In this document: positions 6,833 to 44,409 of the stretch, piece after piece
Layout of the letters: every line of letters begins with the position of its first letter
How positions within the stretch are numbered: position 1 is the stretch's first letter
NCBI GenBank assembly: GCA_963693315.1
Contig: OY856186.1
Coordinates: 386,430,865-386,494,864, forward strand
DNA from: Diogma glabrata
Taxonomy: Eukaryota; Arthropoda; Insecta; Diptera; Cylindrotomidae
Reading direction: 5' to 3'
DNA length: 64,000 nucleotides
The notes under the pieces: model-generated
What the model was told of the DNA's origin: nothing
The model's input: only the letters and a program-made list of their open reading frames with translations
The model's database searches: none
Position numbers and translations under genes: made by a program

Positions 6833-7223
6833 AAATAGTTATTTGTTTAACTAGGCAGCAAAGTAGTAGATTGACTGCCGCGGCTGATAGTTCATAGCCG
6901 AGCGAGCGAGGCTAGGAATTCAGCCAAGGCAGTCAATCTACCTTGCTGCCGAGTTGAACATATAATTTTTTCTCCGATTAATTACAATGATATGTAATTT
7001 AATAATTATTACTTTAAAAATAAAGCAAAATTTTAAAAATGAAAAAAAAAATCGATTAAAAAAAATTTTTTTTAATCGCAATATCTGTTTATTTCTATGA
7101 AGTCTAATTATTTTGCTGCCTAGGCAGCAAAGTACTTGCTTTGCTGCCTAGGCAGGGAAAGTGCCACTTTGCTGTCTGAAATAAGTCTGCAAAATTTATT
7201 TTTGCTCTCTATCGGAGAAAAAA
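6833..7223. mobile_element. MITE family M, copy 1
   Basis: About 390 bp that recur almost identically at 31482-31873 with unrelated flanks, so the shared segment marks a mobile unit. It has GC-richer palindromic pieces: a hairpin around agattgactgccgcggctg with its partner cagccaaggcagtcaatct, and tttgctgcctaggcagcaaa. Its boundaries lie near atagttatttg and tcggagaaaaaa. No open frame. Its insertion separates copies of the surrounding local repeat. Confidence 0.8.
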
Positions 7224-7479
7224 TATATTTTTCATGTATTTTCGCCGATTTCTTTGAAACAGCTTAATCTATTTGGACGGTTTGAGTTGTATTTAATTGA
7301 TGTAGATGCCGAAATGGTCCTAAATTCCTTTTTATGACAGAAAATATCCCCTTTTTCAAAAATATGATAAATCCATGTTTGTTAGATTTTCATCGATGAA
7401 TGCTTGCCGCGATTTTAAGTTATTACTTCAAAAACACTTTCTTCGCCGCCTTTTGATTTTATGACAACACAAAATGAAA

Positions 7480-24689: not shown

Positions 24690-25296
24690 TGTTATGCTTA
24701 ACATAATTTTTTACATATTATTAAAACACATAAATACATTATTTAATTATTATTTAATTATTTATTTGTATTGATATTTAGTTTTTAATATGTTTGGTTA
24801 GTACTGCTGGTATACAACAAATGTGTTGTTATCCAACAAATGTACTACAATCTACTGTTAGTATTCAACGTTAGTTGATATCTAACAAATGTAGATTTTG
24901 TTCGTTTTAAGGACTTGTCTTGTCCGAGATTTATCTGAATCTGAAGTTCTGATTTCAGTTTCGTATCGAACAACATTCTGTTTTGTTTATTTAATTTATT
25001 GTAGTCAAAACAATTCATAGAAGAAACAGAATGCTGATAGATAACGAATAATAAAATGTTAATAACGAACAAATATTTGATACATTGTTATCAAATATTT
25101 GTTTAGAAATATTTATTAATATTTCTTCAATTTCTCTTATTCTTATTTATAAAAACAATAAAATTATATTTCTTGATTCTAAGAACTGTTTGCAATATGA
25201 AGTTATATTTTGTGTAGCATGCAAAACACAATCAATGTTATGATGCTACGTGCTACGAACACTAAAAGTATTATATTTAGTGTGTTCCTCATAACA
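24690..25296 (-). repeat. Left LTR (3' LTR of the gypsy element)
   Basis: 607 bp, starting TGTTATG and ending CATAACA (7-bp inverted termini). Virtually identical to 43799-44405: the differences I see are an A/G at a tccarcaaatg site and a T/C near the end (tatatttag versus tatattcag). It contains an internal tandem similarity around acaacaaatg / ccaacaaatg. It supplies the polyadenylation region for the element transcript. Confidence 0.96.
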
Positions 25297-25311
25297 CCTT
25301 CCCTCTTATTT
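25297..25311 (-). promoter_or_regulatory. Polypurine tract of the gypsy element
   Basis: On the minus strand, aaaataagagggaagg directly precedes the 3' LTR (TGTTATG). This is the expected position and composition for priming plus-strand DNA synthesis. Confidence 0.75.
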
Positions 25312-25408
25312 TTAAAAAATTTGAATTTAAAATTTTTTCATTACTCAACAGTTACATATTATTAAACATTAATTATTTAGAAAAAGGTATGGAAACATAT
25401 ATTTATTT

Positions 25409-25970
25409 TTAAGGTAAAAATCCTTCACCACTATCAGTACTTCTTTCTGTAGGTGAATGTGATCTTGGTCTAATTACAACATTTGAATTTTCATTATCAT
25501 TATAATATCTAATTTCTTGACAAACTGGTTTCTTTTCTTTTTTATTAAAACATTTGTTAAACAAGTTAAAAGTGTTACGTCCTTTAAAACATTTACAGGT
25601 AAAGTATATGATTATTAATGACATGAACAGACCAAAACTTCCACAAACTGTATAATGTACATGATCTGGAATATTTTTTAATGATTTGGAAACATTACTT
25701 TCTTGATTTTGTAATTCTATATTTAAATCTTTCAATTTTTCCAATTTATTAGTTTTAAGTTTTTCAATATTATTTAAAGGTAGGACGTTCTCTAATTTAA
25801 CATTAAGACAACAATCGTCCATCCCAATGGGATAAACATCATCATAAGATATTAACTTAGTATTATTAGCTTCAGTTTCAATTAGAGTATCTACTGTATT
25901 AAATTTACAATCATTATTCAAAACCAAAATCCCTACATTACTTAAAAAACCTTCTTCTAAACTATTTCCT
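25409..25970 (-). pseudogene. Gypsy env, C-terminal part with transmembrane anchor (split gene)
   Basis: About 187 residues of F-like envelope glycoprotein downstream of the nested insertion. The ectodomain end contains a CC pair and a charged, probably helical stretch. A hydrophobic anchor follows (about VCGSFGLFMSLIIIYFTC), then a cysteine- and lysine-rich cytoplasmic tail ending SGEGFLP. The first codons seen in an uninterrupted reading (25971-25993) belong to the inserted element, not to env. The break lies exactly at the TTA duplication (25971-25973). In this family such proteins mediate membrane fusion; here the gene is physically split and so non-functional. Confidence 0.85.
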
Positions 25971-25973
25971 TTA
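25971..25973. other. Target-site duplication TTA (left) of the 11.3-kb element
   Basis: tta directly precedes the element end aggagcctgtaaac. The matching tta lies at 37279-37281, after ggctcct. A TTA/TAA triplet is the known preference of PIF/Harbinger transposases. Confidence 0.8.
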
Positions 25974-26806
25974 AGGAGCCTGTAAACGAGCAACTATTGC
26001 CGGGCAATATTGCTGAAAATATTGCCCGGCAATATTTTCGGCAATGTGTTGCCGAAAATATGGCCGGGCAATATTTTCAGCAATATTGCCCGGCAATGTT
26101 TTAACAAAACCCTTGTAAAATAGCATGTAAACGAGCAACTTTTTACGGCAATGTGTGGCTGGCAATCATTGCCGGGCAATATTGCCCAAATTCAAAAACA
26201 TTCTCGGCAATATTTTCGTATTGCCCGGCAATATATCTGTATATTTCGGCAATATGGCCAGTATTGCAACTAATGGCTGGCATGTTGCTGTTGATATCGC
26301 TCATCGAGCGAAAATATTAAACATTGCCCGGCAACTATTTCGATTTTTGTTGATGTTTTTATTGAAATTGAGAATGTAGTACGTTTTGAAGATTTGTTAA
26401 TGTGAAAACAAAATTATTTCATATAAAAATTTGTTTGAATTAAATTAAATGGTTGGTAAAAAAAGGGATACTGAATTCGGAAATTGTTTTGGTTGTTGTA
26501 AAATAAGAAAAAAGGTAATTTCTTTCTATTCAGATGTTATGGTTAATTAATGATTGATGAAAGGTGGGTTAATAATATTTTTTGTTGTTTTTAATGATTG
26601 TGATTCTGTTTTGAGAATGAGTGCACTTATTTTTGTTTATAAATCGTTTAGTATTTTGAATGGAGAATAAATATGATGGTTTTTTAGTAAAAATTTGTAA
26701 GACTACTGCAATGGAAAGCCTTTCGGCTTGATGAATTAATTATTAAAGTAATTAAATTATTATTCTTTTAATGTCTAAAACACCCAAGGTCTTATAAATA
26801 TTTTTT
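25974..26806 (+). repeat. Left long inverted arm with subterminal ttgccgggcaata repeats
   Basis: 25974-26125 is an extra, hairpin-rich segment (attgccgggcaatattgc and relatives). 26126-26806 pairs with the right arm. The inner edge is near aggtcttataaatattttt. At least eight copies of gccgggcaat or its complement occur in the first 370 bp, probably transposase-binding sites (inference). Confidence 0.88.
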
Positions 26807-27400
26807 GAAGTAAAACTTCTTTAGTGTTTTAAGAATTGTGCAACGGAAGTATAAAAAACGAATATAATATTCGGCAAATAAACGATACAATTCGATTATG
26901 ACACACATATTTTAAATATTCACTGGTTTTTGGTGCATTATAGAAATAGTTTATTGTATTTTTCGATGCTTAAAAATTTAACAGAAATTCAATTCAAAAA
27001 ACATAATTTTGAATTAAATTTAATGATTTTCAATCCGAATTTTTGGAGTATTTTCATTTAATTAAATATCAGTTTTCAAAATATTATATGTCTGTTCCAG
27101 TTTTGTTTACAATGGATGCTTAGACTCGTAAATTAATAAAAATGGCAGCATATTTGGCTTTTTTAAAGGCAGAAAAATAAGTTGTCGCAAATCTTGGTAA
27201 ATAGCAGGCATATATAATGAAATATAAGATGACAAAAAGCTCCGTTTTGAAATTTGAGCAAAATCGAATAACTGGTTGGAGCATGTTTGGTGGATATTTT
27301 TGGTTTGTATGGTAAAGTTATTCATTTGTTCATTTGTTATTATATTTTTTATTCACTTATGCAGTCTTGTCCTAAATGTTATATGAGTTGGATGTGTCGA
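26807..27400. other. Cargo segment, no gene seen
   Basis: AT-rich DNA just inside the left arm. No supported reading frame or known repeat. Confidence 0.5.
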
Positions 27401-27404
27401 TTGT

Positions 27405-28110
27405 AGATGGTGGTCATGGTGGTCATGGTGGTCATGGTGGTCATGGTAGTCATTGTGGTAATTGTGGTCATGGTGGTCATAGTGGTAATGGTGATCACGG
27501 TGTTCACGGTGGTCATGGTAGTTATGGTGGTCACGGTGGTCACGGTGATCGTAGTGGTCATGGTGTTCATTGTGGTCATGGTGGTCATAGTAGTCATGGT
27601 GGTCATAGTGGTCATGGTGGTCATGGTGGTCATAGTGGTGATGATGGTTATGGTGGTCATGGTGGTCACGGTGGTCATGGTGTTCACGGTGGTCATGATG
27701 GTCATGGTGGTCAAGGTGGTCATAGTGGTTATGGTGGTCATGGTGGTAATGGTGGTCATGATGGTCATGGTGTTCACGGTGGTCATGGTGGTCAGGGTGG
27801 TCATGGTGGTTAGGTGGTCATGGTGGTCATGGGGGTCATCGTGGTCATGGTGGTCATGGTGGTCATGGTAGTCATAGTGGTAATGGTGGTTATGGTGGTC
27901 ACGGTGGTCATGGTGTTCACGGGGTTCATGATGGTCATAGTGTTCACGGTGGTCATGATGGTCATGTTGGTCATGGCGGTCATAGCGGTCATGGTGATCA
28001 AAGTGGTCATGGTAGTCATGGTGGTAATGGTGGTCACGGGGGTCATGGTGGTCATGGTGTTCACCGTGGTCATGATGGTCATGGTGGTGTCACGGGGATC
28101 ATGGTGTTGA
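27405..28110 (+). repeat. Minisatellite, 9-bp unit ggtggtcat
   Basis: About 700 bp of ggtggtcat units with point variants (ggtgttcac, ggtagtcat). All frames are open for long stretches on both strands because the unit is a multiple of three without stops. One frame would give a His-Gly-Gly repeat of about 130 residues (27376-27813), others Val-Val-Met or Thr-Thr-Met. No splice, start or conserved flanking context supports a protein. A His/Gly-rich peptide gene cannot be fully excluded but looks unlikely. Confidence 0.93.
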
Positions 28111-28570
28111 GAGTTTACATCCAGGGCTTTCTCGTGCGGGAAAAAATATTTGTGTTGATTAAATTTGTTTTGTTAAATAGAAAATGAGTGCGTGTAATCT
28201 TTGCACGCGGTTGAAATAAATTTCTTTGGCTACTGTGGGAGGTATTAATAAAAAGATGAAATATAAAATAAATATGTCATATTGCAATTTAGAGTTGCAT
28301 TTCTTGATAATATAATTTACTGTGTAATAAAATGTAACATTTACATAATGTATTACAAACTCAATTCAATTTATTAGCATAATTGAAATATGAAATTAGA
28401 GGTTTATGACAAATTTGCTAAATTTATTGAAAAATGCATCAATTGTTGCACCAATTGTTAAATTAAGTGGACATGTATTCATCGTGAAATTTAATTTGTA
28501 ATACGTTGTAAGACTTTATAAAACATGTAAATATGGCTTTTATTACACATTGTTATAAACTATATTATCA
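28111..28570. other. Cargo segment, no gene seen
   Basis: AT-rich spacer between the minisatellite and a small hairpin element. Nothing recognisable. Confidence 0.5.
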
Positions 28571-28577
28571 TATATAA

Positions 28578-28742
28578 TATCACGAGTCGTCAAATAATAG
28601 TCGATTATTTTTCATAATCATTATTACGAATGTCATTTGAGGTCCCGAGTGCGCGTAGCGCACGAGGAAAATATTTAACCTCAAATGGCATGAGTGGTAA
28701 TGTTGAAAAATAATCGACTAATAATTTGGTGACGAGTTGTAT
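28578..28742. mobile_element. Small palindromic MITE
   Basis: About 165 bp with inverted halves. The left has gtcgattatttttca and catttgaggt; the right has the complements (acctcaaatg, tgaaaaataatcgac) around a GC-rich centre gagtgcgcgtagcgcac. The ends acgagtcgtc and gacgagttgt also pair. No target duplication was resolved. Confidence 0.75.
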
Positions 28743-29263
28743 TTAGCAGACAGTTTAACGAACAGAAATAGTAACATTATTTCATACAACATAATCATAC
28801 ATAGTAAAATATTATTTCATCTTAGTAGGCGCATAAATGTTATAAATTTGTAATTTATTTTTGACAAATAAACATAAACATGCAATCATTTATGAATGAA
28901 AACGGACATTTTTACTATTTGCAAATTGCATTTTCACATAATTTTGTATGTGAATTTTTGTTTTAAATTAATATATTAAGTAGGCGGAAAATATTCGAAA
29001 ATATTCGCTGTTCCTTCCTACCAGAAAAAAATAATCGAAACAAATCGTTTTGATTTGCTAAAAAATAGTAAATGAAGCGTTTTTATTGGACCTTATTGAA
29101 ACTTTATTTAGTGAGTTGAGTTGTCAAGAATATTACAAAAGAAACTCTAAATTTCAATATAAGATATCTATTTTATTTTATATTTAATATTTTTAGTAAT
29201 ACCTGCTGCAGTTGCCAAAGAAGTTTTACTTCAACAGCGTGTAAAGATTACGCACTTCATTTT

Positions 29264-29700
<437 letters not shown>

Positions 29701-30177
29701 TCCGTTTGAATCATAATATTTTAATAAAATTTATAAATATTGAATATTTGAACATATTTCTATCATTTTTATCCAAATGACAACTTTGACGTTCCAGGTT
29801 CCTGCAAAATCAGCTGTTTTAAAAATTTGCCAATCTTTTTTGTCCTTGATCTAGCTGAAATGGCCAAGCTCACACTTTTTTATTTAACTAAACTTTAAAA
29901 ATATTGTTTTGTATTTTATATTTATTTAAAAATAAAATTAATTTTTTCTTACTTTAAAATCACAAACAATTTATAAATTTGCGTAGTCTAAAAGAGATTC
30001 ACACAAAAAAAATACTCAATATTCACAAAAACAACATTTAAATTTTTATTCAATGACACCCGATGACTAATTAAATTGAAACAGTAATAACGATCAACCA
30101 TAACTGACCGAATAATGTGTTTTTAAAAAGGTCCCAGCTAAAATCTTTTTCTTCATATGTATCTTCGATTTTCTTAC

Positions 30178-30663
30178 TATAGTAGAATTTTTTTGCCAGC
30201 GAATTTTTGACAGCTAGGACGCAGCAAGAGACAAATAGATGAGACAAAAAGTAAAACAGAGATGTATTATTTATTTTGGGATAAATTTGTTTTCAAAACA
30301 ATTATGTTTATTAAATTTCTACTTCTAGTTCGTACCATTTGTTTGTTGTGATATTTGTTTCCATAGGCGTCGTTAGTTTTATTATATTTATTTTTAATTA
30401 TCAAAATTTTGTTACATTGCCAAAAAAATCATTAATATTTTTACTAGTTTTTGGTTTTCTAATATAATTGGTTGAATTTCAATAGTAATTTATTAATTTT
30501 TATGCGTTTTTTTGTCCATTTCAATGGGACCCCAATAGTTTTTTTTAATATTTTAATCGAGACACTGAATGTGCAAACAATATGCGCATGTGCATGCGCA
30601 TGTGCAAACAATATGCGCATAACAAACAAATTTTGTGTTCGCTGGCAAAAAAATTCTACTATA
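30178..30663. mobile_element. MITE-like unit with 26-bp perfect terminal inverted repeats
   Basis: The left arm tatagtagaatttttttgcc-agcgaa (30178-30203) is matched by its exact complement at 30638-30663. The 490-bp span between them holds only AT-rich non-coding DNA and a small GC-alternating stretch (gcgcatgtgcatgcgcatgt). TA-rich flanks suggest a Tc1/mariner-type target, but the superfamily is unproved. Confidence 0.65.
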
Positions 30664-31481
30664 CATACATGTATTTATTATATTACTATTGTTTTTATTT
30701 TTTTATAAAGGATGCAAAAACTAGAAAAAAATTAAAAGAGGATTAACCAACCGACCACCATAACTAATATTAATGGTGACTGATCTTCTGTCAAATCGTT
30801 TTTTTGTTTGTTTGTTTTCCTTTATTTCTCTGAGAGAGAAACCGGTTTGTCTTCCCAAAGACGTGCGAAAATTTTTCATTTGATTCAAAATTGTACAATT
30901 ATTGCAAATTTCTTTTAAATCTATAAGAAAAAAACCTACCACAAAAAAATAATAGTTTCTCCCTCACTGCTACTATATAAAAAGAAATAAGAAAAATGAC
31001 AGATTAGGATTTGATTCTAACCAAACATATAAATTTTAATCTTTTATCTATTAAAAATAAACTACGCAATAATGAAAAGTTGGTCGCCAGCTAGTTTTCA
31101 TAATATACTTTCAGGATGTATACATAACTTAAATATTTGAACATTGGCATTATAAAACAATAAAATATTCACTATTATAAAATCACTGGAAATAACACAA
31201 TAAATGTAAAATACTCTCGTAATTATTTTCATTCATTTTATAAAAATTAGCACAACTAAAAATAATAGATTGTACTTTTTGTTTTGTTTTAAATTATTTA
31301 ATTGTTTTTAATTTATAATTTAATACAATAGTTGGTTGTTGTAAATAAACAGAAATGCAAATGGCGAAATGAGAAATTGAATATGACATTTTTGTGAACA
31401 CGATTTCTTATGTCTCTCTTCATACAATTTTAAAGTTATGTTCTCTCTATATTTATATATACTCTAAGGGATTAACCTAAT
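30664..31481. other. Cargo segment, no gene seen
   Basis: AT-rich DNA between two MITEs. Short frames show no recognisable motif. Confidence 0.5.
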
Positions 31482-31873
31482 AAATAGTTATTTGTTTAAC
31501 TAGGCAGCAAAGTAGTAGATTGACTGCCGCGGCTGATAGTTCATAGCCGAGCGAGCGAGGCTAGGAATTCAGCCAAGGCAGTCAATCTACCTTGCTGCCG
31601 AGTTGAACATATAATTTTTTCTCCGATTAATTACAATGATACGTAATTTAATAATTATTACTTTAAAAATAAAGCAAAATGAAAAAAATGAAAAAAAAAA
31701 TCGATTAAAAAAATTTTTTTTTAATCGCAATATCTATTTATTTCTATGAAGTCTAATTATTTTGCTGCCTAGGCAGCAAAGTACTTGCTTTGCTGCCTAG
31801 GCAGGAAAAGTGCCACTTTGCTGACTGAAATAAGTCTGCAAAATTTATATTTGCTGTCTATCGGAGAAAAAAA
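31482..31873. mobile_element. MITE family M, copy 2
   Basis: Near-identical to 6833-7223 (the same tgactgccgcggctgatag hairpin and tttgctgcctaggcagcaaa palindrome), with only a handful of differences and unrelated flanks. It lies inside the 11.3-kb element, so it arrived before that element moved or soon after. Confidence 0.82.
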
Positions 31874-32659
31874 TATTTTTAGCAAAATAATAATTTTGGC
31901 GCCTAAATTAAATCCTTTTACATTTTTATTGTTTCAAAGTGTTACTATTGATAATTGCTATTTAGGTAGATTTCATATAAAGATCTACCTATTTTATTAT
32001 CTGTTGTTTCTATTTAAAAAGATGTTTGGAAAAATGGTCAGTAACCTTCATTGGGTATTGTATTTGAGCTAGATTTCATATAAAAACTTACTTTTTGTAA
32101 TTAACATGCGTCATCACGGGAATTCCCAAAAATTTTCTTGTCAGTTTATGAGCTACCATCTTTTTATGATAAAAGATGACGAAAAATCAAATCAAACATA
32201 TTATATATGTACGTATATTATTATATAGTGTGTATATTATTTTAGATTGTTGATTGGATTTGATAATTTAATTTAAAAATAAAATGTTACTTGGAGATTG
32301 TCAATTTATTGTTTGATTAAATAAACAAAATTGTTTCAATATCCGTATCAGCTGGATTAAGTAGTGGAATGTGAATCAACAAATATTTTTATTTGATTCA
32401 ATATATTAAGGTTTATAAACGTTGCTTAAATAAAATTCAATAATCTCGTAATATAATTTGAAAATAGTTTAATAATAATATGCACAAATTGATTGATGAT
32501 TATCGCTCGAGAGCTTATATTATAGAAAACGATATTTTGCAAAATGATGTATTTTTGTCGGTAAGAATTGAACGTAATTGAATTAACTTTATTATTTCAA
32601 TTGATTTGTACAAACAGTCAAACTGTTGAGATCACTCACCGTCATAGTAAAAAAATGCA
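31874..32659. other. Cargo segment with partial family L matches
   Basis: Two partial copies of the family L start occur: aggtagatttcatataaag at about 31963, and a diverged one at about 32068 followed by a cgtcatcacgggaattccc-like stretch. No gene otherwise. Confidence 0.55.
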
Positions 32660-32885
32660 AAAGGACCTCTTTGTTCGTACATCGTACAATGGAATGCTTT
32701 GCTCGAATCAATAGTTTCGGGGGCGTTCAATCCACACAAAAATAAAATTGCGTCCACTAAATCTTCAGAACGCATATTGTTGTGGGACCTAGGTCTTAAA
32801 AGGTATCTATGTATGTGTTATTCTGACACACATTGTTATTCCTATAACAAAACACTTTATATAAAAAACAAAATCGATAGTTCAT
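32660..32885 (+). repeat. Dispersed repeat family D (copy 1)
   Basis: Carries tggaatgctttgctcgaatc, aattgcgtccactaaat and gacctaggtcttaaaagg. Counterparts lie in reverse complement near 46140-46300 (ccttttaagacataggtctc, gattcgagcaaagcattcta) and partially at 51610-51665 (aattgcgtccatcaacacg, gaccttggttttaaaagga). Probably a piece of an old LINE or DNA element. Non-coding here. Confidence 0.65.
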
Positions 32886-33960
32886 AGAGTCCCTGTAGTT
32901 TTAGTCGGTAAGAAGGATGAAATTATTAATTTCTGCATTGATTACAGAAAACTGAATGCAGTAATAAAAAATAGCTACCCATTACCTCAAACTGATGATA
33001 CCCTGGATAAATTTGCAGGTGCCAAATTGTTCTCAACAATAGATCTGCAAAGTGCTTCATGGCACGTAGAAATCCAGGAAGAGGACCGATAATTGACAGC
33101 GTTTAGTATGGGTAGTGGGTTGTGTAATAGGAATGTGTGAGGGGAGGGCTGCGTAATTTCTCAGGGCTGTGTAATGCCCCAGCAGCATTTGAAAGTTTAA
33201 TGGAACGTGTCTTGCGTTATTGAACGATATTATTGTAACGGTCATAGACTTGAAAGATCATTTGAAAAAAAAAATAGAGAAACCTTCGAAAGAATTCAAG
33301 CAGCAGGACTCGTAATAAGTCCAAAGAAATATACACTGTTTAGAGAGAAAGTACAATACTTGGGGCGCAAAGTGACAACAAATGGTGAACACCCAAATGC
33401 CCACCCAGAGCTTTGTAGTTGTCTAGGATTTTGCACTTACTACCAATGTTTTGTACCAACATTAGTTAACAGGAATAAAAAGGCTCTACGTAAGCTAACA
33501 AGGACGGATAAAGCATTTAAATGAACAAAAAAGCAAGAAGATGCGTTAGTGGAAATTTAAAAAAGATTGTGCTCTGCACCAGATCTGGCTTACCAGATTT
33601 TAAATTCATATTTGAAACTAAAGCTAGCACTGATGTTACAGGAGGAGTGTTATTTCAAGAAATGGATGGGGAAAAGAGTAATGGCCCATATTAATAGAAG
33701 AAACTGTCCAAGCCAGAAAGGAATTATTGTTTAACCTGTAAAAAATTGTTGGCTATAATGGAATGTGTGAAACATATTTCCACAAATACTTGTACAGTTA
33801 AAAATTTCCATTTGAGAACTGATCATGGAGCATTAAGGTGATTGGTACGATGGATTAAACGCTTGCAGGCTTATGATTTTGAAGTGCTCATGGAAATGTT
33901 GACGCATAGTCGAAACTTCGATGGCAGGTAAAATACAAGCACTGTAACCGAACCGGAAGT
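32886..33960 (+). pseudogene. Heavily decayed Ty3/gypsy pol (RT-RNase H)
   Basis: Reads in pieces. RT motifs are VPVVLVGKKDEIINFCIDYR, NSYPLPQTDDTLDKF, LFSTIDLQSASWHVEI (motif A region) and GLCNAPAAFESLMERVL. Later comes ISPKKYTLFREKVQYLGRKV, and near 33815 an RNase H remnant LRTDHGALR. The catalytic YLDDV region is lost, and there are several stops and frameshifts. It is clearly older than the intact-looking gypsy element around it, and from a different lineage judged by the motif sequences. It lies inside the cargo of the 11.3-kb element. Confidence 0.85.
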
Positions 33961-34144
33961 AAGGAAAACATTATTGATGCCAGGCTTCCTCTAGCGTGAA
34001 GGGTCGATTTGGATCGATTATGATCAATGTTGATCTACGGGTCTGACTACCCCGCGTACTTCTGTCCCTGCCATTGACATTTGAGTTAGCGTGAGATATC
34101 ACATACCACTGGCAATGGCAGGAGATATCATTAGCCAAGATGAT

Positions 34145-34480
34145 ATCTTACGGTACTGGCGGACGAACTTTAATTAGTCAACGGCACCACTCCCAGTCTT
34201 AGCTAGGCAGCGTTCCGTAGTAGTATGGCTCATTAGCTCTTCCGAGGAATCAGACCAAAATAAAGTTATTTGGGCTTTGTGCCTCGATTGGGGTGGTGAA
34301 AGGTGCATCTGGGGTGCGCTGTATCAGCTGGATTATTGGCAATTAGTTTCGTTATTTTTTCTGCAAATTTCTAACAATTTGCTTTTCACTTATAGTTTTG
34401 TTATTATTTCTTCATCTTATCATGAAATATTGGCATATGTCGTATTTTATTGCATGATAAGGTTTTTTGCTTAGTTATCC
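34145..34480 (+). repeat. Dispersed repeat family E (copy 1)
   Basis: Matches 51270-51600 in order: ggtactggcgga-gaactt, agtcaacgg-acca, gtcttagct, ctggattattgg, ttagtttcgtt, then atcatgaaatattggc-tatgt. Non-coding. It lies immediately upstream of a dead LINE and may be its 5' region. Confidence 0.65.
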
Positions 34481-34622
34481 ATTCTTTAATAAAACATAAA
34501 AAAATAAACCTTTTGATACAACAGAAACGATATACGTCTGCAAGTAGTAAAGTAAATATGCGCAATCCACCCGCCCATAAAGCGGCATGTCCACGGTATT
34601 TGCAGGGACAACACATATATGA

Positions 34623-36530
34623 ATGAAAAAAAAATTTAGAATACATGTTCAAAACATCTGCGGATTAAACGCTAACCATGACCACGTGCAACATCATTAT
34701 GAGCACGACATACTGAACTTTCTTTTCCTTACAGAAACACAAGTTTCTGTAAACTTTGAAAACGAGATTAGAGCAAAGTCCTCTAATTGTGAGGTTATCA
34801 TTACCGGTGACTTCAACTTTCACAACAAATCATGGTTGGAATTCTTCAAATCGACCGACGATATTGACAATAGTGGAAAACAGGCAAACATTTTGCTGCG
34901 TCTATCCCAAATTGTTAAAAACCCAAATTTCACTCCCCGTAATGGCGGTGATAATAGTTTTCTTTTAGATCTCTATCTTACCACAATGCAAGATATTACG
35001 AATGTCAATGTCGCGAAAGGTAGCATTGGAAATTCTGATCATTATTTAATGTCATCAGTTATCAAAACTGATTTACCCCTTTTTCCATAGTAAAACCCAA
35101 ACAAAAATACATACTTGCATTCAAAAGCTGCCAAAACGGCACTTAGAAACAAACGTAGATCATTTAATATTTGGATTTATAACAAAACTCCCACTAATCG
35201 ATCCCAATATCTAAAGGCCAACAAAATATCTAACCAGATAATCTCTAATCTAAAACTTCCGTCTATGTCTATTTCTGACAAGAGTTTCTACAGTGCCATT
35301 AATTCCTTAGATTTTGGTACAAAATCTTCCTATTATTGATGGTGATTCAATCGTCAATGATCCCGCAAAAAAATTTAACTTGTTCGCTGAACGCTTTGCT
35401 CTGAACTCCACTGTTTTGGAAACTTCTAAAGAAATACTCCAAATACAGTCTTCAGGAGTTAATATGAACGAACTCCACTTCAAACCCAAAATAGTCGCTA
35501 AACTTCTAAGGGGGTTAAACACCAACAAAGCCTTAGGAATGGTAAAACATTCCACGCATTATTTTAAAAACCTTTTCTAAAGACCTTGCACCAACTTTGA
35601 CTAAAATATTCTACCAATCCTACAAATCTGGTATATTTCCCTCGTGCTGAAAGTTGGCAAATGTCCAGCCCGTCCCCAAAAAGGGACCAAAATCCGATAT
35701 CTCAAATTATAGGCCTATAGCATTTCAAAATTTTTGGAAGTAAATCATTTAATAGCCGACAGCCAATACGGTTTTCGAAACAAAAGATCTACTACCGATC
35801 TGTTATGATAAAGGCTTGATAAAGGTTGTGAAACATACGTTATCGCTTTAGAAATCTCCAAGGCATTCGATCGAGTCTGGCATGCCAACTTAATCAACAA
35901 GCTCGTTGCGTATGGGTTTCTTCCCACTTTTGTGAAGCTGATTCAAAATTTTCCAACCGATACAATTCAGTCTCCTTAGACGGCTTATCATCTGAGTCTA
36001 AACTAATTAAGGCTGGTTAATGAGCCTCAAGGCTCAGTATCGTCCCCAACACTATTTTTGATTTATATCAACGAATTGTTGAAAATCACCAGCAACCCAA
36101 TAAATAGTTTTGCAAATGATAGTACTCTGCACAAATCATTCGAGTCCTTCCCTTAAAAATTAAAATGCACGAACGAATTAATCCCGCCCGGAGAGACGCT
36201 GCCATAAACGTCAATAACGACCTAAAAAAGTCGCCGATCGGGGTGATCAAAACCTGATCAATTTCAACTCTGCCAAAACACAGCTATTGATTATTTCCAG
36301 ATCAAAGACCGAGTTCCCCAAAGATATTTTATTCAGCATGTGTGATGAACCTATAGGTGAATGTAAAAACATTGGGTGTCACAGTTTCAAATGACTTACT
36401 CTGGAACGATCATGTAATGGCAATGGCAAAAATCGCGTATAGAAAACTTGGCCTCCTAAATAGATGCAAAAAAATTTTCACTCCATACCAATTGCTCCAT
36501 GTTTATCCTACAAGCCAATTTAAAAAAAAA
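34623..36530 (+). pseudogene. Decayed Jockey-type LINE (endonuclease and RT pieces)
   Basis: The first frame (34623-35090) is an endonuclease domain with an internal deletion: IHVQNICGLNANHDHV, FLFLTETQV, VIITGDFNFHN and SDHYLM survive. Downstream pieces give LRNKRRSFNIWIYNKTP, LLRGLNTNKALGM, KIFYQSYKSGIFPS, VQPVPKKGPKSDISNYRPIA, YVIALEISKAFDRVW, LINELLKITSNPINSFANDS and LGVTVSNDLLWNDHV. Many frameshifts and stops mark it as old. The relic at 46490-47800 on the other strand is the same family. It lies in the cargo of the 11.3-kb element and ends close to the right arm. Confidence 0.87.
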
Positions 36531-36610
36531 ACTTCTTGTCTTTCCACTTATATGGAAACTTTCAGCATGCTCGTTTATCAACTCATTATCCCTCAAACGA
36601 AATTATTTAT

Positions 36611-37278
36611 TAAAAAATATTTATAAAACCTTGGGTGTTTTAAACATTAAAAGAATAATAATTTAATTACTTTAATAATTAATTCATCAAGCCGAAATGC
36701 TTTCCATTGCAGTAGTCTTACAAATTTTTACTAAAAAACCATCATATTTATTCTCCATTCAAAATACTAAACGATTTATAAACAAAAATAAGTGCACTCA
36801 TTCTCAAAACAGAATCACAATCATTAAAAACAACAAAAAATATTATTAACCCACCTTTCATCAATCATTAATTAACCATAACATCTGAATAGAAAGAAAT
36901 TACCTTTTTTCTTATTTTACAACAACCAAAACAATTTCCGAATTCAGTATCCCTTTTTTTACCAACCATTTAATTTAATTCAAACAAATTTTTATATGAA
37001 ATAATTTTGTTTTCACATTAACAAATCTTCAAAACGTACTACATTCTCAAATTCAATAAAAAAAACAACAACAAAAATCGAAATAGTTGCCGGGCAATAT
37101 TTAATATTTTCGATCGATGAAAAAAATCAACAGCCATTAGTTGCAATACCGGCAATATTGCCGAGCTATACAAATATATTGCCGGGCAATACGAAAAAAT
37201 TGCCGGGAATGTTTTTGAATTTGGGCAATATTGCCCGGCCACACATTGCCGTAAAAAGTTGCTCGTTTACAGGCTCCT
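36611..37278 (-). repeat. Right long inverted arm
   Basis: Complement of 26126-26806. Its outer end, agttgctcgtttacaggctc, continues ct into the TTA duplication. Subterminal ttgccgggcaatat-type motifs lie at about 37086, 37147, 37180, 37199 and 37224. It lacks the extra 150-bp tip present at the left end. Confidence 0.9.
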
Positions 37279-38568
37279 TTACATTTACATTTATATTTAG
37301 TTTCCATACTAATAACAAAAATATATTTTTGGTTATTTATTTTATGAAATATTTCAATTTCATTTGGTATATAATTCAAATTACAATATTTATTTGTTCT
37401 TTTCATAAAAATATTTGTTACACATTCATTATCTCTTAAGGTGCTTCCTAAATTAGTTTCTTTACAAATAAAATATGTTTTCAAATTGTCTAAATATTGT
37501 TTACAATCTTTCATATTTGTTCTTAGATTATATTCTTCTTTATCCTTACTTATTAGCAAAATATTTTCGTCTCTTTCAACTTTAATTATTGACCATTGAT
37601 TATTAACTTTAAAAGGTATTGGGATAATTTCGTATGTTTCAATAATAATGGGTTTTAAGGTAGGTATAGATAATATTATATTAATTACATTATTTTTATC
37701 GAAAGCTTTAATCGTTAGTTCTTTTATTAGTAAATGATAATTTTCTAACGTGGGAGAAAATAATAAATGTTCTTCATTTTTACTATTGGCTAAAACATTT
37801 ATAAGTTTTTCGGGTTTTATTATAATAGGATGTATTACATTAGTTTGAAGAAACAAAATAGCATCTATAATTTTTTCAAGTTCAATTTCTAATTCAAAAA
37901 GTTTTTCAGTTATTGAAATTTGTAAATTTCGTAAGTATATCGTAATTGTGAATTTTTTTGTTAATTCATTGGCGTTTTCAACTACTTTGTTTACCTGGTT
38001 TATGTTATTAATAACTTTAGATTCTATTATATGATAATTATTAGTAAGTATTTTATTTTGTTCATTAAGGCTTTTCATTATTTTTACTTCTTCTTTTAAT
38101 CCATTGTGAATGAATTCCTGATTTTCCTTGAGTGTAGTAATAACATTATCATAATGTTCTGCATCGTCATTACTCATTGTTCCGAATAATACTTTTAAGC
38201 CTCCGCCAACTAAATTGATCAATCCCCTAGTTATTCTAGTCTTCTTATTTCCTAGAAGTGAATGTATTACATCTACCTTATCTATTAATTTATTAAAATT
38301 TTGCTTCGCGTCATTCTGAAACTTATTACATTCTTTTAGATGATCTATACATGCTTGATTTATATTATTTAATTGATTTAAAACGACGTTAATTGTTTCC
38401 TCTATATCGTTCATGTTTATTTGATTAATAATCGATATTTTCCCATCTATTATCCTAGTTTCCCCTATATTTTTAAAATAAACACCATTGTGATTGTCTA
38501 ATGAATAAATTTCCAGAGTTGTAATAATTTTGATGTAGACGAATATTAAGGCTAACCTAAAAATGGTT
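37279..38568 (-). pseudogene. Gypsy env, N-terminal part (F-type envelope glycoprotein, split gene)
   Basis: The frame is open from about 38568, overlapping the end of the integrase frame, and includes a hydrophobic LALIFVYIKII stretch that could be a signal peptide. Env of insect errantiviruses is made from a spliced RNA, so an acceptor near here is expected. The first in-frame ATG is at 38414, downstream of that stretch. The ectodomain has a basic cleavage-like site (TRITR) followed by a glycine-rich fusion-peptide region and FGTMSNDDAEHY. This arrangement is known from baculovirus F proteins and errantiviral env. Helical, Asn-rich segments follow. The frame is broken at 37279 by the 11.3-kb element, whose TTA duplication it contains; the anchor part lies at 25409-25970. 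Confidence 0.85.
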
Positions 38569-39487
38569 TTATATGTGATTTATTATATTTAACTCTTTTC
38601 TTATTTTTTATAACTACTACGGAATTTGTATCGACTAATATTATCTTAAAAGGACCTCTATATACGCTATCTAGAACACCGTTACGTTCATTTCTTACCA
38701 AAACTCGGTCACCTTTTTTATATTTATGTTGTTTCCCTAAGTTCCTATCGTATCTTATTTTAGATTTAACTTTTGTGGACTCTAAATTCCTATTTGCTTT
38801 AAATTCCATTTCTAATAATTTTGTTTTAAGTTCTTCTGCATAATCATTTATTGTATCCACAACTAAGAAATCTATCTCGCTTGGTTTATTTGCTTTTCTA
38901 CCGAATAATAATTCATATGGAGTAAATCCAGTGGAGTTATGAACTGTTGTATTATAACAAAAGCTTGCGTATTTCATATGCTTATTCCAATTTTTGTCGT
39001 TTTCTAAATTTTTTCCAACTAATTTTAAATATTCCTTTAGCCTTGCATGTGCTCGTTCAATACTGCCGTTCGCTTGTGGATATGCCACACTTGTTGTTAC
39101 ATGCTTAAAACCAAAGAGTTTAGAAATTTCGTCCATAAGTGAATTACAAAATTCAGATCCATTATCTGATAAAATTATTTTTGGTAAACCAAAATTTAAG
39201 ATCCACCCTTCAACCAAATTCTTAGCTACGGTTGTCATTTCTTTATTACGAATTGGAATAAATTTTATATATTTTGATAAATCATCTTGAATCGATAACC
39301 CGTATAAGTTTTTATCTTTCGTTTCTTTAAAAGGACCCGTTAAATCAATCGCAATATTTTCTAGACAATGTTTTGCATTACTTACTATTTTCATTGGGTT
39401 TCTATGAGGATGTCTATTAATTTTTTCCATTTGACATGCTTTACATTTTTCTATATATTCTATAACATCACGATTTAAGCTTTTCCA
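38552..39487 (-). pseudogene. Gypsy pol, integrase region (downstream of a stop)
   Basis: Continues the pol frame after a single TAA at 39488-39490. The zinc-binding region is split by that stop: the H-H half (HNSLVGGH) lies before it and the C-C half (EKCKACQ) after it. The core domain has the D,D,E residues in AIDLTGPF, ILSDNGSEF and NGSIERAHARL, followed by HNSTGFTPYELLFGR. A GPY/F-type C-terminal module with YRGPFKIILVD ends at IKPFLG. The frame overlaps the start of env by a few bases. The premature stop is the only coding lesion I see in pol. Confidence 0.9.
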
Positions 39488-39490
39488 ATT

Positions 39491-42304
39491 TTATTTTTCT
39501 TTAATTTTTTGGATTGTTGCTTTTTGACCTGAATGGCCACCAACTAAACTATTATGATTTTCTTCTATAATCTTTTTCCTAAGTTCAAGATTTTCTACTT
39601 CTTCTGTGTCATGACTAATATTTGAATTATTTTCAATACTATCGTTTTCTACGATTTCTTCATTATTTTCACTACCAAAAATTTCTTCAATTTCTTTTTC
39701 TAAACGTTCTTCTTGTTCTCTAGTAATATATACGTTTCTACTTAATTCATCAGCAACTTTGTTATCACATCCATTTTTATATTCAATTTGATATTCATAT
39801 TCCTCTAATAGCAATCTCCATCGTACTAACATCGATCCTGGATTTTTTACGTTGAATAACCATTGTAATGGTCTATGATCGGTTCTAACTATAAACTTCC
39901 GTCCGTACAAATATGGTCGAAATTGTTTTATTGCCCAAATTATTGCAAGACACTCACGTTGAGTGGTATCATAGTTTTTTTCAGCATTATTTAGCGTTCT
40001 ACTTATAAACTGTAATGGTAAATCTTTATTTTCATGATTCTGACTTAGTTCAGCACCGATTCCATCTTTACTTGTATCTGTTGTTACGATAAATTCTTTT
40101 GTAAAATCCGGATATTGAAGCATTGTGAAATTAATCAATTCCTGTTTTAATTTCTCAAAGGCTTTTTGATGAATTTCATCCCATACAAATGGTTCATTTT
40201 TCTTTAACAATTTATTTATTGGACTTGCAACCATACTACAATTTTGGATAAACTTCCTATAGTAACCTATCATACCAAGAAAAGATTTTACTTCTTTAAC
40301 ACATCGTGGAGGAGAAAATTTTTGAATTGCAGCAACTTTATTAGGATCTGATTCTACACCCTTATCAGTTATTATATGACCCAAGTAGCTGACTTTTTTC
40401 CGAACAAATTCAGATTTATCTAATTGAAGCTTTAGGTTAGCTTTCTGTAACTGAGTAAATACTTTAATTAACCTATCATTGTGTTCATCTAATGTAGGTC
40501 CATATATAACAATGTCGTCCAAGTAGACGAAGCAATCGACCCCTTGTAGGCCAGATAAAACTGTATTCATTAATCTTTGAAAACATGCCGGAGCATTTTT
40601 CAAACCAAATGGCATTTTTGTAAATTCATAGTGACCCGTTGGAGTGCTAAACGCCGTTTTTTCGATGTCATTATCGACTACTGATATTTGATGAAATCCT
40701 GATGTTAAATCTAACGTTGAAAAGTATTTTGATTTCCCTAACTGATCTAGTATCTCTGATATATTTGGCAATGGATAATTATCTGAAATAGTGATGTCGT
40801 TTAATTTCCTATAATCTATTACCATTCTCCATTTAGCTTTTCCTGATGCATTCTTTTTTTTTGGCACTACCCAAATAGGTGAATTCCACGGTGACTGACT
40901 ATCTCTTATAACACCATCATTTTTCAATTTCTTTATTTGTCTAGCAACTTCTTCTTCATGAATTTTTGGATATCTGTACGTTTTCGTGTAAATTGGGTTA
41001 CTATCTTTAGTCCTAATATGATGTTTAACTACATTTGTTACTGATAATTTCTCATTTTCTAAACTAAAAATTGATTGAAAATCTCTAATAATTTTCATTA
41101 CCTTTTCTTTTTCTTCATTATTTAAATGATCTAATCTCAAACTACCTATTATTTTCTTAAATCTTTCATTAATATTCTCAAAATACATTACTTCATGATC
41201 ATTATCTGATTGATCGTTTACTTGGTTAGAATTCCCTAAAGACATTCCAGTTGGTAAAGAATCAACCTTTACTTTCTTAAATCTTTCATTAATATTCTCA
41301 AAATACATTATTTCATGATCATTATCTGATTGATCGTTTACTAGGTTAGAATTCCCTAAAGACATTCCAGTTGGTAAAGAATCAACCTTTACTTTCTTAA
41401 ATCTTTCATTAATATTCTCAAAATACATTATTTCATGATCATTATCTGATTGATCGTTTACTAGGTTAGAATTCCCTAAAGACATTCCAGTTGGTAAAGA
41501 ATCAACCTTTACTTTCTTAAATCTTTCATTAATATTCTCAAAATACATTATTTCATGATCATTATCTGATTGATCGTTTACTAGGTTAGAATTCCCTAAA
41601 GACATTCCAGTTGGTAAAGAATCAACCCTTTTACTTTCTTTAGCATTTTCTAAAAATGAATGGTTTTGCACCAGATTGAAATCCTCTAAAGGTATTCCAG
41701 TTAGTGAAAAATCAATTTTATTATTTTCTTCTAAAATATTACAAACTTTAATATATGCTAAACCATCTTTTCTTATTTTTGCAATACAATTCGGAATTAA
41801 AATACCATGTCTTTCACATTTTTCAATCACTACATCTTCCGAACTTTTTCCATTAACATTTATCTTTACTAATCTAAATACTTCTGTTCTAGCCGCGATT
41901 TCTCGATCTTGATTTCTAAAAATCAAATCAACTTCTTCATTTCTATTTATTAAGCAATTGTTTTCAAAATTAATACTGAACTCGTTTTTCCTCAGAAAAT
42001 CGTTACCTATTATACCATCATAATTATCCAAAATATTTTCATTAATTACCTGAAAAGGTATTCTAAAACATCTCTTATTTTTACTATTCAAGAAAATTAT
42101 CCGAATATTACAACTGCCAAGGCTATTCGTTGTAGATTCAGACAAACCTTTAAATTTAATTATTTCCGACGCAACAAAATCTTTCTCAAATATACAATTA
42201 TTTTTAATTAGTGATATAGTCGCTCCAGTATCGACTAAAATTTTATATACTTGATTTTCGTACACCATATTAATGTAGGGACTTTCAGAATCTGGATCAG
42301 ACAC
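39491..42304 (-). CDS. Gypsy pol: aspartic protease, reverse transcriptase, RNase H
   Basis: About 937 residues. Protease at 10-110 with LVDTGATISLI (DTG at 25-27). A linker of four 40-residue repeats spans 227-386. RT at about 430-640 has WRMVIDYRKLNDIT, YFSTLDLTSGFHQI (motif A), KMPFGLKNAPACFQRLMN and FVYLDDIVIYG (catalytic, about 593). RNase H at about 720-850 has FIVTTDTSKDGIGAEL, RECLAIIWAIKQFRPYLYG and VRTDHRPLQWL. The chromodomain-free end leads into the integrase zinc finger. Gag lies upstream in the same frame, separated by several stops. The first ATG is used here for coordinates only; the true pol start, after cleavage or recoding, is unknown. Confidence 0.95.
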   Translation of the reverse strand: MSDPDSESPYINMVYENQVYKILVDTGATISLIKNNCIFEKDFVASEIIKFKGLSESTTNSLGSCNIRIIFLNSKNKRCFRIPFQVINENILDNYDGIIGNDFLRKNEFSINFENNCLINRNEEVDLIFRNQDREIAARTEVFRLVKINVNGKSSEDVVIEKCERHGILIPNCIAKIRKDGLAYIKVCNILEENNKIDFSLTGIPLEDFNLVQNHSFLENAKESKRVDSLPTGMSLGNSNLVNDQSDNDHEIMYFENINERFKKVKVDSLPTGMSLGNSNLVNDQSDNDHEIMYFENINERFKKVKVDSLPTGMSLGNSNLVNDQSDNDHEIMYFENINERFKKVKVDSLPTGMSLGNSNQVNDQSDNDHEVMYFENINERFKKIIGSLRLDHLNNEEKEKVMKIIRDFQSIFSLENEKLSVTNVVKHHIRTKDSNPIYTKTYRYPKIHEEEVARQIKKLKNDGVIRDSQSPWNSPIWVVPKKKNASGKAKWRMVIDYRKLNDITISDNYPLPNISEILDQLGKSKYFSTLDLTSGFHQISVVDNDIEKTAFSTPTGHYEFTKMPFGLKNAPACFQRLMNTVLSGLQGVDCFVYLDDIVIYGPTLDEHNDRLIKVFTQLQKANLKLQLDKSEFVRKKVSYLGHIITDKGVESDPNKVAAIQKFSPPRCVKEVKSFLGMIGYYRKFIQNCSMVASPINKLLKKNEPFVWDEIHQKAFEKLKQELINFTMLQYPDFTKEFIVTTDTSKDGIGAELSQNHENKDLPLQFISRTLNNAEKNYDTTQRECLAIIWAIKQFRPYLYGRKFIVRTDHRPLQWLFNVKNPGSMLVRWRLLLEEYEYQIEYKNGCDNKVADELSRNVYITREQEERLEKEIEEIFGSENNEEIVENDSIENNSNISHDTEEVENLELRKKIIEENHNSLVGGHSGQKATIQKIKEK
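41147..41626 (-). repeat. Four 120-bp in-frame tandem repeats in pol
   Basis: Four copies of a 40-residue unit beginning VDSLPTGMSLGNSN and ending NINERFKK sit between the protease and RT. The middle copies are identical at nucleotide level and the last is slightly diverged. The period of exactly 120 bp preserves the frame. Confidence 0.97.
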
Positions 42305-42370
42305 CCTAAAGAAATCTAATCCTGGTTTCGAAAATTCACTTTTCCAAAATGTTTGGTTAATTCATTAACT

Positions 42371-43138
42371 TTATTTATTATTACTATTTCGATTTTCGTT
42401 AAAATTTTTATTTTTTTGTTCATAATTTCTATATAAACCTGGTCGATTGTACTGATACGCATTCCTTCTGTGGAAACATTGATTGACTTTGTGGTTCGGT
42501 TTCCCACAATTATAACATTTGACGATTTTCATGTGATTTACCCTGTAAGAATTCCGGTTAGTGTAATCTCTACTTCCTTCTTTATTAATTGTCAAAAGCC
42601 TACTCTCCTCTTCGATACCATATTCACTTGCTTCTTGTGGCTCATTTGGTTTCCTTGTATTTACGTATGTACTGATTCGTTCATTCAATCCGTTGATAAA
42701 AGCACACAAAACATTTGTTTTAATGTACGAACATTTTCCATCCCAATTTTTATCTATTGTTTCCATTTTTTCATTTTGTAACAATCTCCGTTGTAATGTT
42801 TCGCACTTCTGTAGAAATTGTAAAACATTTTCGTTCGATTTTTGTTTTAATGAAATTAATTCTCTATACAACTGTAAATTTGAATGAGTTTCCTTATAAA
42901 CTTTATTTAATTCCGTTTTTAAATCACTCCATAATGCAACGTTTTTATTCATTAAAATAGTGGATGCATTTCCACTAATTCGGGATTTAATATACGATAG
43001 TAAAATTAGTCGCTGTTTTATATCAGCTAACGAATTTGCATTTTCGCAACTTTGAATGAATTGGAAAGCTTCCGAAGCTTCTCCAGAAAAGGAAGGTATA
43101 AAACGAAATAGGACATTAATATCAACTGGTTCAACCAT
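42371..43138 (-). CDS. Gypsy gag with CCHC zinc knuckle
   Basis: About 255 residues from the ATG at 43138 (MVEPVDIN); an upstream in-frame ATG at 43165 is possible. The N-terminal part FIPSFSGEASEAFQFIQSCE and the central WSDLKTELNKVY resemble the retrotransposon capsid fold. Near the C-terminus CYNCGKPNHKVNQC is a CX2CX4HX4C RNA-binding knuckle, followed by an Asn/Arg-rich tail. It forms the virus-like particle and packages RNA. The frame is intact. It ends in TAA, and stops follow in the same frame before pol, so how pol is expressed from this copy is unclear. Confidence 0.9.
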   Translation of the reverse strand: MVEPVDINVLFRFIPSFSGEASEAFQFIQSCENANSLADIKQRLILLSYIKSRISGNASTILMNKNVALWSDLKTELNKVYKETHSNLQLYRELISLKQKSNENVLQFLQKCETLQRRLLQNEKMETIDKNWDGKCSYIKTNVLCAFINGLNERISTYVNTRKPNEPQEASEYGIEEESRLLTINKEGSRDYTNRNSYRVNHMKIVKCYNCGKPNHKVNQCFHRRNAYQYNRPGLYRNYEQKNKNFNENRNSNNK

Positions 43139-43165
43139 TTTTATATAACTTAAGAACAGAATCAA

Positions 43166-43798
43166 AGAAACAATTCAATTTCACTAAACTAACATATAAT
43201 TTTATCAAAAATATCTGTTTCTCTTTATATTTATAAAAACACAATCAAAAAAATTAAATTATTAATTAAAATGACTTACAGTAACATCTTGATTGATGAA
43301 AAGTTGATCCGCCAAATATGAATTGAGATTAATTAATTTTAGTTGATGTTGATGTATTGTATTTTTTTTTGTTGTTGCTCAATTTTAACAGCTTTTTCCG
43401 AAATATAGTTTAAATGACAATTCTTCACAATTCACGAAGAATTAAATTTTGTTTAAAATTTCAATTTAAATTTTACTTGTTTAATTAATAAACACTTTTT
43501 ATTTGAACAGCTTTTCTGTCCGAAAATATAATTTCAATTATAATTTTCCACAATTATGATTCACCAAGAATTAAATTTTTCTTAAAATTTCAATTTAAAT
43601 TTTACTTGTTTAACTAATAAACACTTTTCATTTGAACAGCTTTTCTGTCCGAAAATATAATTTCGATTATAATTTTTCGCAATTATGATTCATTTAGAAT
43701 TAAATTTCAATTTAAATTTTTCTTTAAAATTGCACTGATTTAAATTTTCTTTAAAATTTCACTGATTTTTATATCTTTACCGCTGTCACCATTTTTTA
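43166..43798 (-). other. Gypsy leader with tandem repeats and putative primer-binding site
   Basis: The untranslated leader between the 5' LTR and gag contains units of about 128 bp with gaacagcttttctgtccgaa (43505 and 43633) and a partial copy near 43388. Near the LTR, the minus strand reads tggtgacagcggtaaaga, starting seven bases inside the LTR edge. The initial TGG fits pairing to a tRNA CCA end; which tRNA is not determined. Confidence 0.65.
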
Positions 43799-44405
43799 TG
43801 TTATGCTTAACATAATTTTTTACATATTATTAAAACACATAAATACATTATTTAATTATTATTTAATTATTTATTTGTATTGATATTTAGTTTTTAATAT
43901 GTTTGGTTAGTACTGCTGGTATACAACAAATGTGTTGTTATCCAGCAAATGTACTACAATCTACTGTTAGTATTCAACGTTAGTTGATATCTAACAAATG
44001 TAGATTTTGTTCGTTTTAAGGACTTGTCTTGTCCGAGATTTATCTGAATCTGAAGTTCTGATTTCAGTTTCGTATCGAACAACATTCTGTTTTGTTTATT
44101 TAATTTATTGTAGTCAAAACAATTCATAGAAGAAACAGAATGCTGATAGATAACGAATAATAAAATGTTAATAACGAACAAATATTTGATACATTGTTAT
44201 CAAATATTTGTTTAGAAATATTTATTAATATTTCTTCAATTTCTCTTATTCTTATTTATAAAAACAATAAAATTATATTTCTTGATTCTAAGAACTGTTT
44301 GCAATATGAAGTTATATTTTGTGTAGCATGCAAAACACAATCAATGTTATGATGCTACGTGCTACGAACACTAAAAGTATTATATTCAGTGTGTTCCTCA
44401 TAACA
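43799..44405 (-). repeat. Right LTR (5' LTR of the gypsy element)
   Basis: 607 bp, TGTTATG...CATAACA, followed by the CTAG duplication (44406-44409). Nearly identical to the left LTR. It would contain the promoter for the minus-strand transcript. Confidence 0.96.
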
Positions 44406-44409
44406 CTAG

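Follow-up and report, generated by a model that had tools for sequence, protein, structure and literature searches.

An 11.3-kb insertion in the env gene of a young Diogma glabrata retroelement is probably a member of a dispersed family of giant, Harbinger-like transposons

The stretch of Diogma glabrata DNA considered here, hereafter the window, comprises 64,000 nucleotides (C1:386430865-386494864) of a 1.33-Gb genome and contains a long terminal repeat (LTR) retroelement whose env gene is interrupted by a block of 11.3 kb (25974-37278). The block has AGGAGCCTGTAAAC ends with TTA on both sides, and sits between two env parts. A previous reading of the letters made without database searches (the sequence-only reading) had proposed a long-inverted-repeat element that brought some 10 kb of old genomic sequence into a young host, and the ends, flanking TTA, env interruption and interior contents that it described are all present where it placed them. 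The host and the arms of the block are arranged as follows, in window positions:

24690-44406: host LTR retroelement with gag, pol, integrase and a Baculo_F-type env
24690-25297, minus strand: host LTR (3' LTR in its own sense); over 608 bp it shares 99.67% identity with 43799-44406
25412-25973, minus strand: C-terminal part of the host env, 187 codons, no stop; 25971-25973 is one TTA copy
25974-26806, plus strand: left arm, 833 bp, with an outer palindrome at 25996-26097 and the end motif repeated directly at 26126-26140
36612-37278, minus strand: right arm, 667 bp
37279-38579, minus strand: N-terminal part of the host env, 433 codons, no stop; 37279-37281 is the other TTA copy
43799-44406, minus strand: host LTR (5' LTR in its own sense), paired with 24690-25297

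The host LTRs are almost identical, as the sequence-only reading had noted, and are bordered by CTAG on both outer sides if the LTR end is placed at CATAACA. It had also described the env halves as otherwise intact. They are free of stops; nine homologues were found, and to six of these the halves align side by side (0-6 residues apart). The open reading frame (ORF) at 37140-38579, on the N-terminal side, matches Baculo_F with an E-value of 2.1e-24. The host retroelement is not wholly intact, since a stop divides its pol gene into two ORFs. Within an open pol frame lies a 120-bp unit in four copies (41144-41640), which are 98% alike.

A genome search with the env flank returned six places, namely the window, two host copies at 99% identity (measured over the 600 bp searched) and three at 69%. 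In one of the close copies 131 bp correspond to window 25910-25973 plus 37279-37348 at 100%, with an overlap of exactly one TTA, and the second is also empty, with one base different in that triplet. Because the empty site holds a single TTA and the env parts align side by side, the block must have entered as one unit, duplicating 3 bp of its target, and a misjoin, which had already been argued against from the letters alone, is excluded.

The AGGAGCCTGTAAACGAGCAACT ends are identical on the left and right sides of the element, and may resemble Harbinger ends. Arms of about 0.67 kb had been proposed, a length that holds for the right arm and falls short for the left. When aligned to each other the arms give 643 matches, 21 mismatches and 172 gap columns; they are near-identical over their inner ~430 bp, and the outer part is variable in GGCAATATTGCC-type palindromes. 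Neither arm contains an inverted inner copy of the end motif, allowing up to 3 mismatches, which speaks against a macro-transposon composed of two distinct elements; the left arm carries only a direct duplicate of its end, and the single TTA pair lies at the outer ends.

The exact 14-base end motif occurs 210 times in the genome (98 + 112), compared to 2 for a reversed control. The pairing and flank counts that follow rest on the first 100 of these 210 places, among which there are 39 inward pairs, with 37 of them spanning 8.3-21.6 kb. Their sizes are 176 bp (one pair), 8.3-8.6 kb (5), 9.6-10.2 kb (12), 10.6-13 kb (13), 15-21.6 kb (7) and 63 kb (one); the pair at 436.63 Mb measures 12985 bp. 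Flanks were read for all 39, and identical TTA or TAA is found on both sides in 35, made up of 11 of 12 in one set, 8 of 8 larger copies (12.7-21.6 kb, without counting the 26.3-Mb element twice), 15 of 18 in a further set, and the window copy. Even supposing that all flanks were random TTA or TAA, such agreement has a probability of 1.7e-7, and together with the 210 end matches against 2 and the base-resolution empty site it excludes chance. The sequence-only reading had named arms belonging to separate short elements, each with its own TTA, as the case that would speak against it; none was seen among the 39 pairs, where the sole short form, at 176 bp (L022), carries both family ends, keeps ~90 bp from each and has TTA on both sides.

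Twenty elements were fetched whole: 13 resemble the window copy (A type), 6 belong to a second type (B type), and the remaining element is the 176-bp form. A one-sided outer extension of the arm, with an offset of 60-159 bp, occurs in 12 of the 13 A-type elements (the 148.4 Mb element yielded no arm-to-arm alignment) and in 5 of the 6 B-type elements. Two of the A-type elements, at 148.4 and 159.0 Mb, are rearranged, and larger members consist of the A or B type plus further insertions. The member at 148.36-148.38 Mb of C1 (L042-L043) is a mosaic, in which A pieces are inverted and repeated and the right end is B-like. The 63-kb end pair (C1:59785081-59848336; L005, L006) has two B-type arms, of which the right is cut off after 338 bp and the left is interrupted by a repeat; its ends are complementary, with TAA on both sides, and it may be one greatly enlarged element. 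In the 363.1-Mb member about 12 kb are inserted in a B copy (L032:6518 to L034:4433), with several ORFs of 150-433 aa, three of which were scanned and gave no Pfam match.

Two interior probes, for which the best 40 of 127 and the best 40 of 1817 candidates were scored, place the A interior at at least 55 loci including the window, at 96-100% identity. All seven A copies among the 12 elements fetched first align end to end with the window element except for 30180-30661 and 30749-31867, and two of the seven, at 79.8 Mb and at C3 106.3 Mb, carry private insertions. Being missing from all seven, these two window segments are later insertions, so that the earlier claim of about 10 kb of old DNA stands as far as an old interior moving as cargo is concerned and fails for these parts. 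Nor was this a one-off block of neighbouring genomic DNA, as had been supposed: the interior is a standing family interior, mostly of ~9.7-10 kb. We conclude with good confidence that the 11.3-kb block is a both-ended member of a dispersed family of giant, Harbinger-like transposons, which inserted as one unit into env. Between its arms the window copy contains:

27407-28088: 9-bp minisatellite (ATGGTGGTC)n, present in the 7 A-type copies compared
28181-29263: old MITE-like (miniature inverted-repeat transposable element) element with ~120-bp inverted ends, 80% alike, common to A-type copies
29261-29877: dispersed repeat with a TA array at 29382-29517; the 21.6-kb copy has ~12.5 kb of other DNA in this place
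29876-30179: first part of the core, matching inverted repeats around the transposase block of the 21.6-kb copy (L030/L031)
30180-30661: window-specific later insertion
30661-30751: second part of the core, in A and B types, 90-92% to B type; 30662-30748 is 100% to A type
30749-31867: window-specific later insertion or insertions, which take in most of a MITE that matches window 6830-7232 at 97% identity
31868-32889: core, in A type; in B type as the pieces 31869-32152 and 32597-32889
32886-33960, plus strand: dead gypsy-type pol fragment, from its translation; 72-74% to B type
34623-36500, plus strand: dead long interspersed nuclear element (LINE) with endonuclease and reverse transcriptase (RT) remains, Exo_endo_phos_2 E-value 2.3e-08

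The lesions of this interior are older than the insertion that holds it. When 4 kb of interior were compared in 11 A copies, divergence came to 0.60-2.06%; each copy carries between 7 and 37 private substitutions, and 23 two-state columns are shared. In the window copy the private substitutions number 12, consistent with its host's young LTRs. Along the frame of the RT motif in the gypsy fragment, 11 of 12 stops are present in all 11 aligned A copies and the twelfth in 10, though the fragment shifts frame and individual shared stops are not necessarily separate lesions. As these stops are common to copies at other loci, comparison of the copies indicates that the gypsy decay preceded the spread of the family, and that the dead gypsy pol, the dead LINE and the minisatellite are common to copies by descent. 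A related picture emerges for the LINE, of which the 148.4-Mb copy holds a version with a 733-codon open frame that is 84.7-91% identical to the dead one in the window, putting the split of the two several times further back than the family spread.

B-type arms are 79-88% alike to those of the A type. Order and orientation in B copies are as in A for 30661-30751, 31869-32152, 32597-32889 and, at 72-74%, the gypsy piece, with a different LINE between core and gypsy piece; the DNA beside their left arm gave no blastn match to A. The gypsy fragment thus likely predates the A/B split, and on the simplest reading the common ancestor would have held the core and the gypsy fragment, with each branch gaining its own LINE later. 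Since the B type keeps the order of arms, core and gypsy yet has another LINE, the fossils were likely built up stepwise.

A possible source of mobility lies in the 21.6-kb member (C1:92.90-92.93 Mb), where two open frames are predicted transposase exons, one with a DDE_Tnp_4 domain (E-value 1.9e-29) and with HARBI1/ALP1-like relatives. On the opposite strand, L030:5385-5753 encodes a MADF_DNA_bdg domain (E-value 9.3e-15), and we regard the pair as a candidate helper. Among the candidates scored the transposase is the sole copy at its identity, its 148 genome matches being mostly at 35-52%. A search by sequence found no solved structure for it at an E-value of 0.001, and phage records gave no match. 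The same member contains ~5 kb that are stop-free in all six frames (L029:3574-7806 and L030:1-800), presumably a tandem array. The sequence-only reading had proposed a search for a Harbinger transposase sharing the family ends; one open gene lies in an element with these ends, but inside inverted repeats of its own. The earlier suggestion of a PIF/Harbinger-related element moved in trans fits the duplication, and mobilisation in trans is likely.

These observations suggest a mechanism in which a PIF/Harbinger transposase, of the transposase plus MADF type seen in the 21.6-kb member, would act in trans on about 90 bp at each terminus, cutting and pasting everything that the ends enclose (for 37 of the 39 pairs, 8.3-21.6 kb). 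The signals are likely within these ~90 bp since the 176-bp form retains them and has TTA on both sides. Retroelements and MITEs would land inside mobile copies, decay there, and be carried and multiplied in later rounds, a stepwise graveyard that the common order of parts in the copies suggests; a young host could then hold old DNA because the decay took place in earlier members of the lineage. We also put forward, as a speculation that we think doubtful, that the palindrome-rich long arms lift the size limit of the superfamily, so that any DNA landing between them becomes permanently mobile, and the element acts as a self-loading carrier that re-mobilises dead transposons as units of 10-20 kb, possibly even one of 63 kb.

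Several points weigh against the reading of the block as a member of a Harbinger-like family moved by such a helper. Neither the window copy nor the A and B ORFs scanned yielded a transposase, and the assignment to the Harbinger superfamily, though likely, draws on the duplication and the ends. Of the 100 end places, 22 are unpaired (two of these lie inside paired elements), four of the 39 pairs have unlike flanks (TTG/TAA, CAA/TTA, TAA/TTA and TTA/TAC), and the larger copies may perhaps owe their size to insertions after transposition. The transposase block has its own flanking inverted repeats, 81% alike with GG-starting outer ends, and its nearest relatives elsewhere, at 83-87%, are fragments, including one on C3 with no arms or core within the 4.5 kb fetched. 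The size effect seen in yeast, where excision and insertion of PIF/Pong/Harbinger elements of 430 to 7,126 bp drop with size (PMC10288884, as far as the text available to us goes, which holds for all papers cited here), fits badly with dozens of ~10-kb copies.

Other accounts of the block fare worse. A macro-transposition in which two arm elements and 10 kb of ordinary genomic DNA jumped together just once would explain the mixed old interior, the outer ends only and the one TTA pair, but it is improbable given interior segments at at least 55 loci at 96-100% and the lack of an inner inverted terminus in either arm. For the window copy a one-off capture is ruled out by the family; macro-transposition may have been the origin of the first family ancestor. 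The donor copy without arms that the sequence-only reading envisaged did not appear in a search with 26830-27400, which returned family members only, at 98-100%, among the best 40 of 1817 candidates, and which a diverged donor would escape. The repetitive genome and the single assembly are what might speak for a misjoin or chimaeric contig, whose chance is negligible beside the duplicated TTA, the two further host copies with an empty site and the 39 similar pairs, 35 of which have matching flanks. LTR identity is merely a proxy of age, and one could imagine an insertion older than the LTRs imply, with the filled retroelement being retrotransposed or its LTRs converted while the interior decayed inside env. 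That history is most unlikely, considering that both other host copies are empty and 99% identical over 600 bp, that the interior lesions are common to copies elsewhere, and that the few private substitutions of the window copy match the LTR identity.

The choice of helper is closer. A different Harbinger, from among families in the genome that are ~50% identical, could be the true one, with the transposase of the 21.6-kb member a nested passenger, and we give this a sizeable chance, somewhat short of even. It would agree with the inverted repeats starting GGWTAATCC around the block, with the lack of a clean TWA pair at the block flanks, and with the low identity of most of the 148 matches. 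Against it, one of the repeats around the block is the core, so that A copies retain the DNA next to the transposase start at its usual position and B copies retain the outer part of it, as in deletion derivatives of a native autonomous element; on the comparison of these copies we lean towards the block being native to the family.

Elsewhere in the window, 1.65 kb at 393-2038 match their own reverse complement at 96% and include a fragment of a Tc1-type transposase helix-turn-helix (1212-1757). A phosphate-cotransporter-like ORF is closest to sand-fly and mosquito proteins, at up to 55%, which points to a dipteran. A search of the window against Rfam at gathering scores gave no match, and the exact 21-base end gave none in viral and prokaryotic contigs.

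The duplication motif of PIF/Harbinger elements is TWA (TTA or TAA), and a duplication of this kind was found in 35 of the 39 pairs and at the empty site. Elements of the superfamily make a 3-bp target duplication, and insect PIF elements have a transposase and Myb/MADF gene pair (PMC9710019). Tourist MITEs such as mPing are alike in the 3-bp duplication, the inverted ends and likely movement in trans by a two-gene pair, though mPing has 430 bp (PMC10288884) compared to the 8.3-21.6 kb of the window family. The latter also differs from them in its palindrome-rich arms of 0.67-0.83 kb and its interior of decayed retroelements. P-type target duplications are longer than 3 bp, which does not agree with the TTA/TAA flanks or with an empty site of exactly TTA. 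This separates the family from Galileo, a P superfamily member, although the Foldback/Galileo elements of Drosophila are similar in having long inverted repeats with internal subrepeats (PMC3688188). The window family shares with foldback elements a variable arm length and a heterogeneous middle, and its arms (833 and 667 bp, with the palindrome at 25996-26097) are long, inverted and palindrome-rich. The Ac/Ds macrotransposons of maize consist of two complete neighbouring elements, and the DNA between two ends moves as one; here there is instead one family-wide unit with a single end per arm, neither arm holding a second, inverted end. Teratorn is a giant eukaryotic DNA transposon, and Polintons (Mavericks) carry polymerase B and retroviral-type integrase genes between their ends. 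Viral or replication genes were not found among the ORFs scanned in our case, the selected ORFs giving LINE, RT, Harbinger or MADF domains or none. Polintons are alike in being large for a DNA transposon, and Pack-MULEs in moving foreign DNA between inverted repeats in trans, though the latter carry gene fragments and belong to another superfamily (PMC6431247), where the window family carries nested dead transposons.

Long-armed foldback elements, Pack-MULEs and the macrotransposons of maize are all well known, as is a superfamily with two genes and a 3-bp target duplication. The distinguishing feature here is a Harbinger-like family whose ~10-kb units have multiplied together with a common fossil load, and no giant, composite or long terminal inverted repeat Harbinger family was found in the parts of the open-access literature available to us. 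PIF/Harbinger elements have been argued to remain small since mobility declines with size (PMC10288884), and this rule becomes directly testable with a family of ~10-kb members that number in the dozens and whose ordinary copies yielded no transposase. A DNA transposon, moreover, can multiply dead repeats, and age estimates can be misled, as old-looking LINE or gypsy remains can occupy very recent insertion sites.

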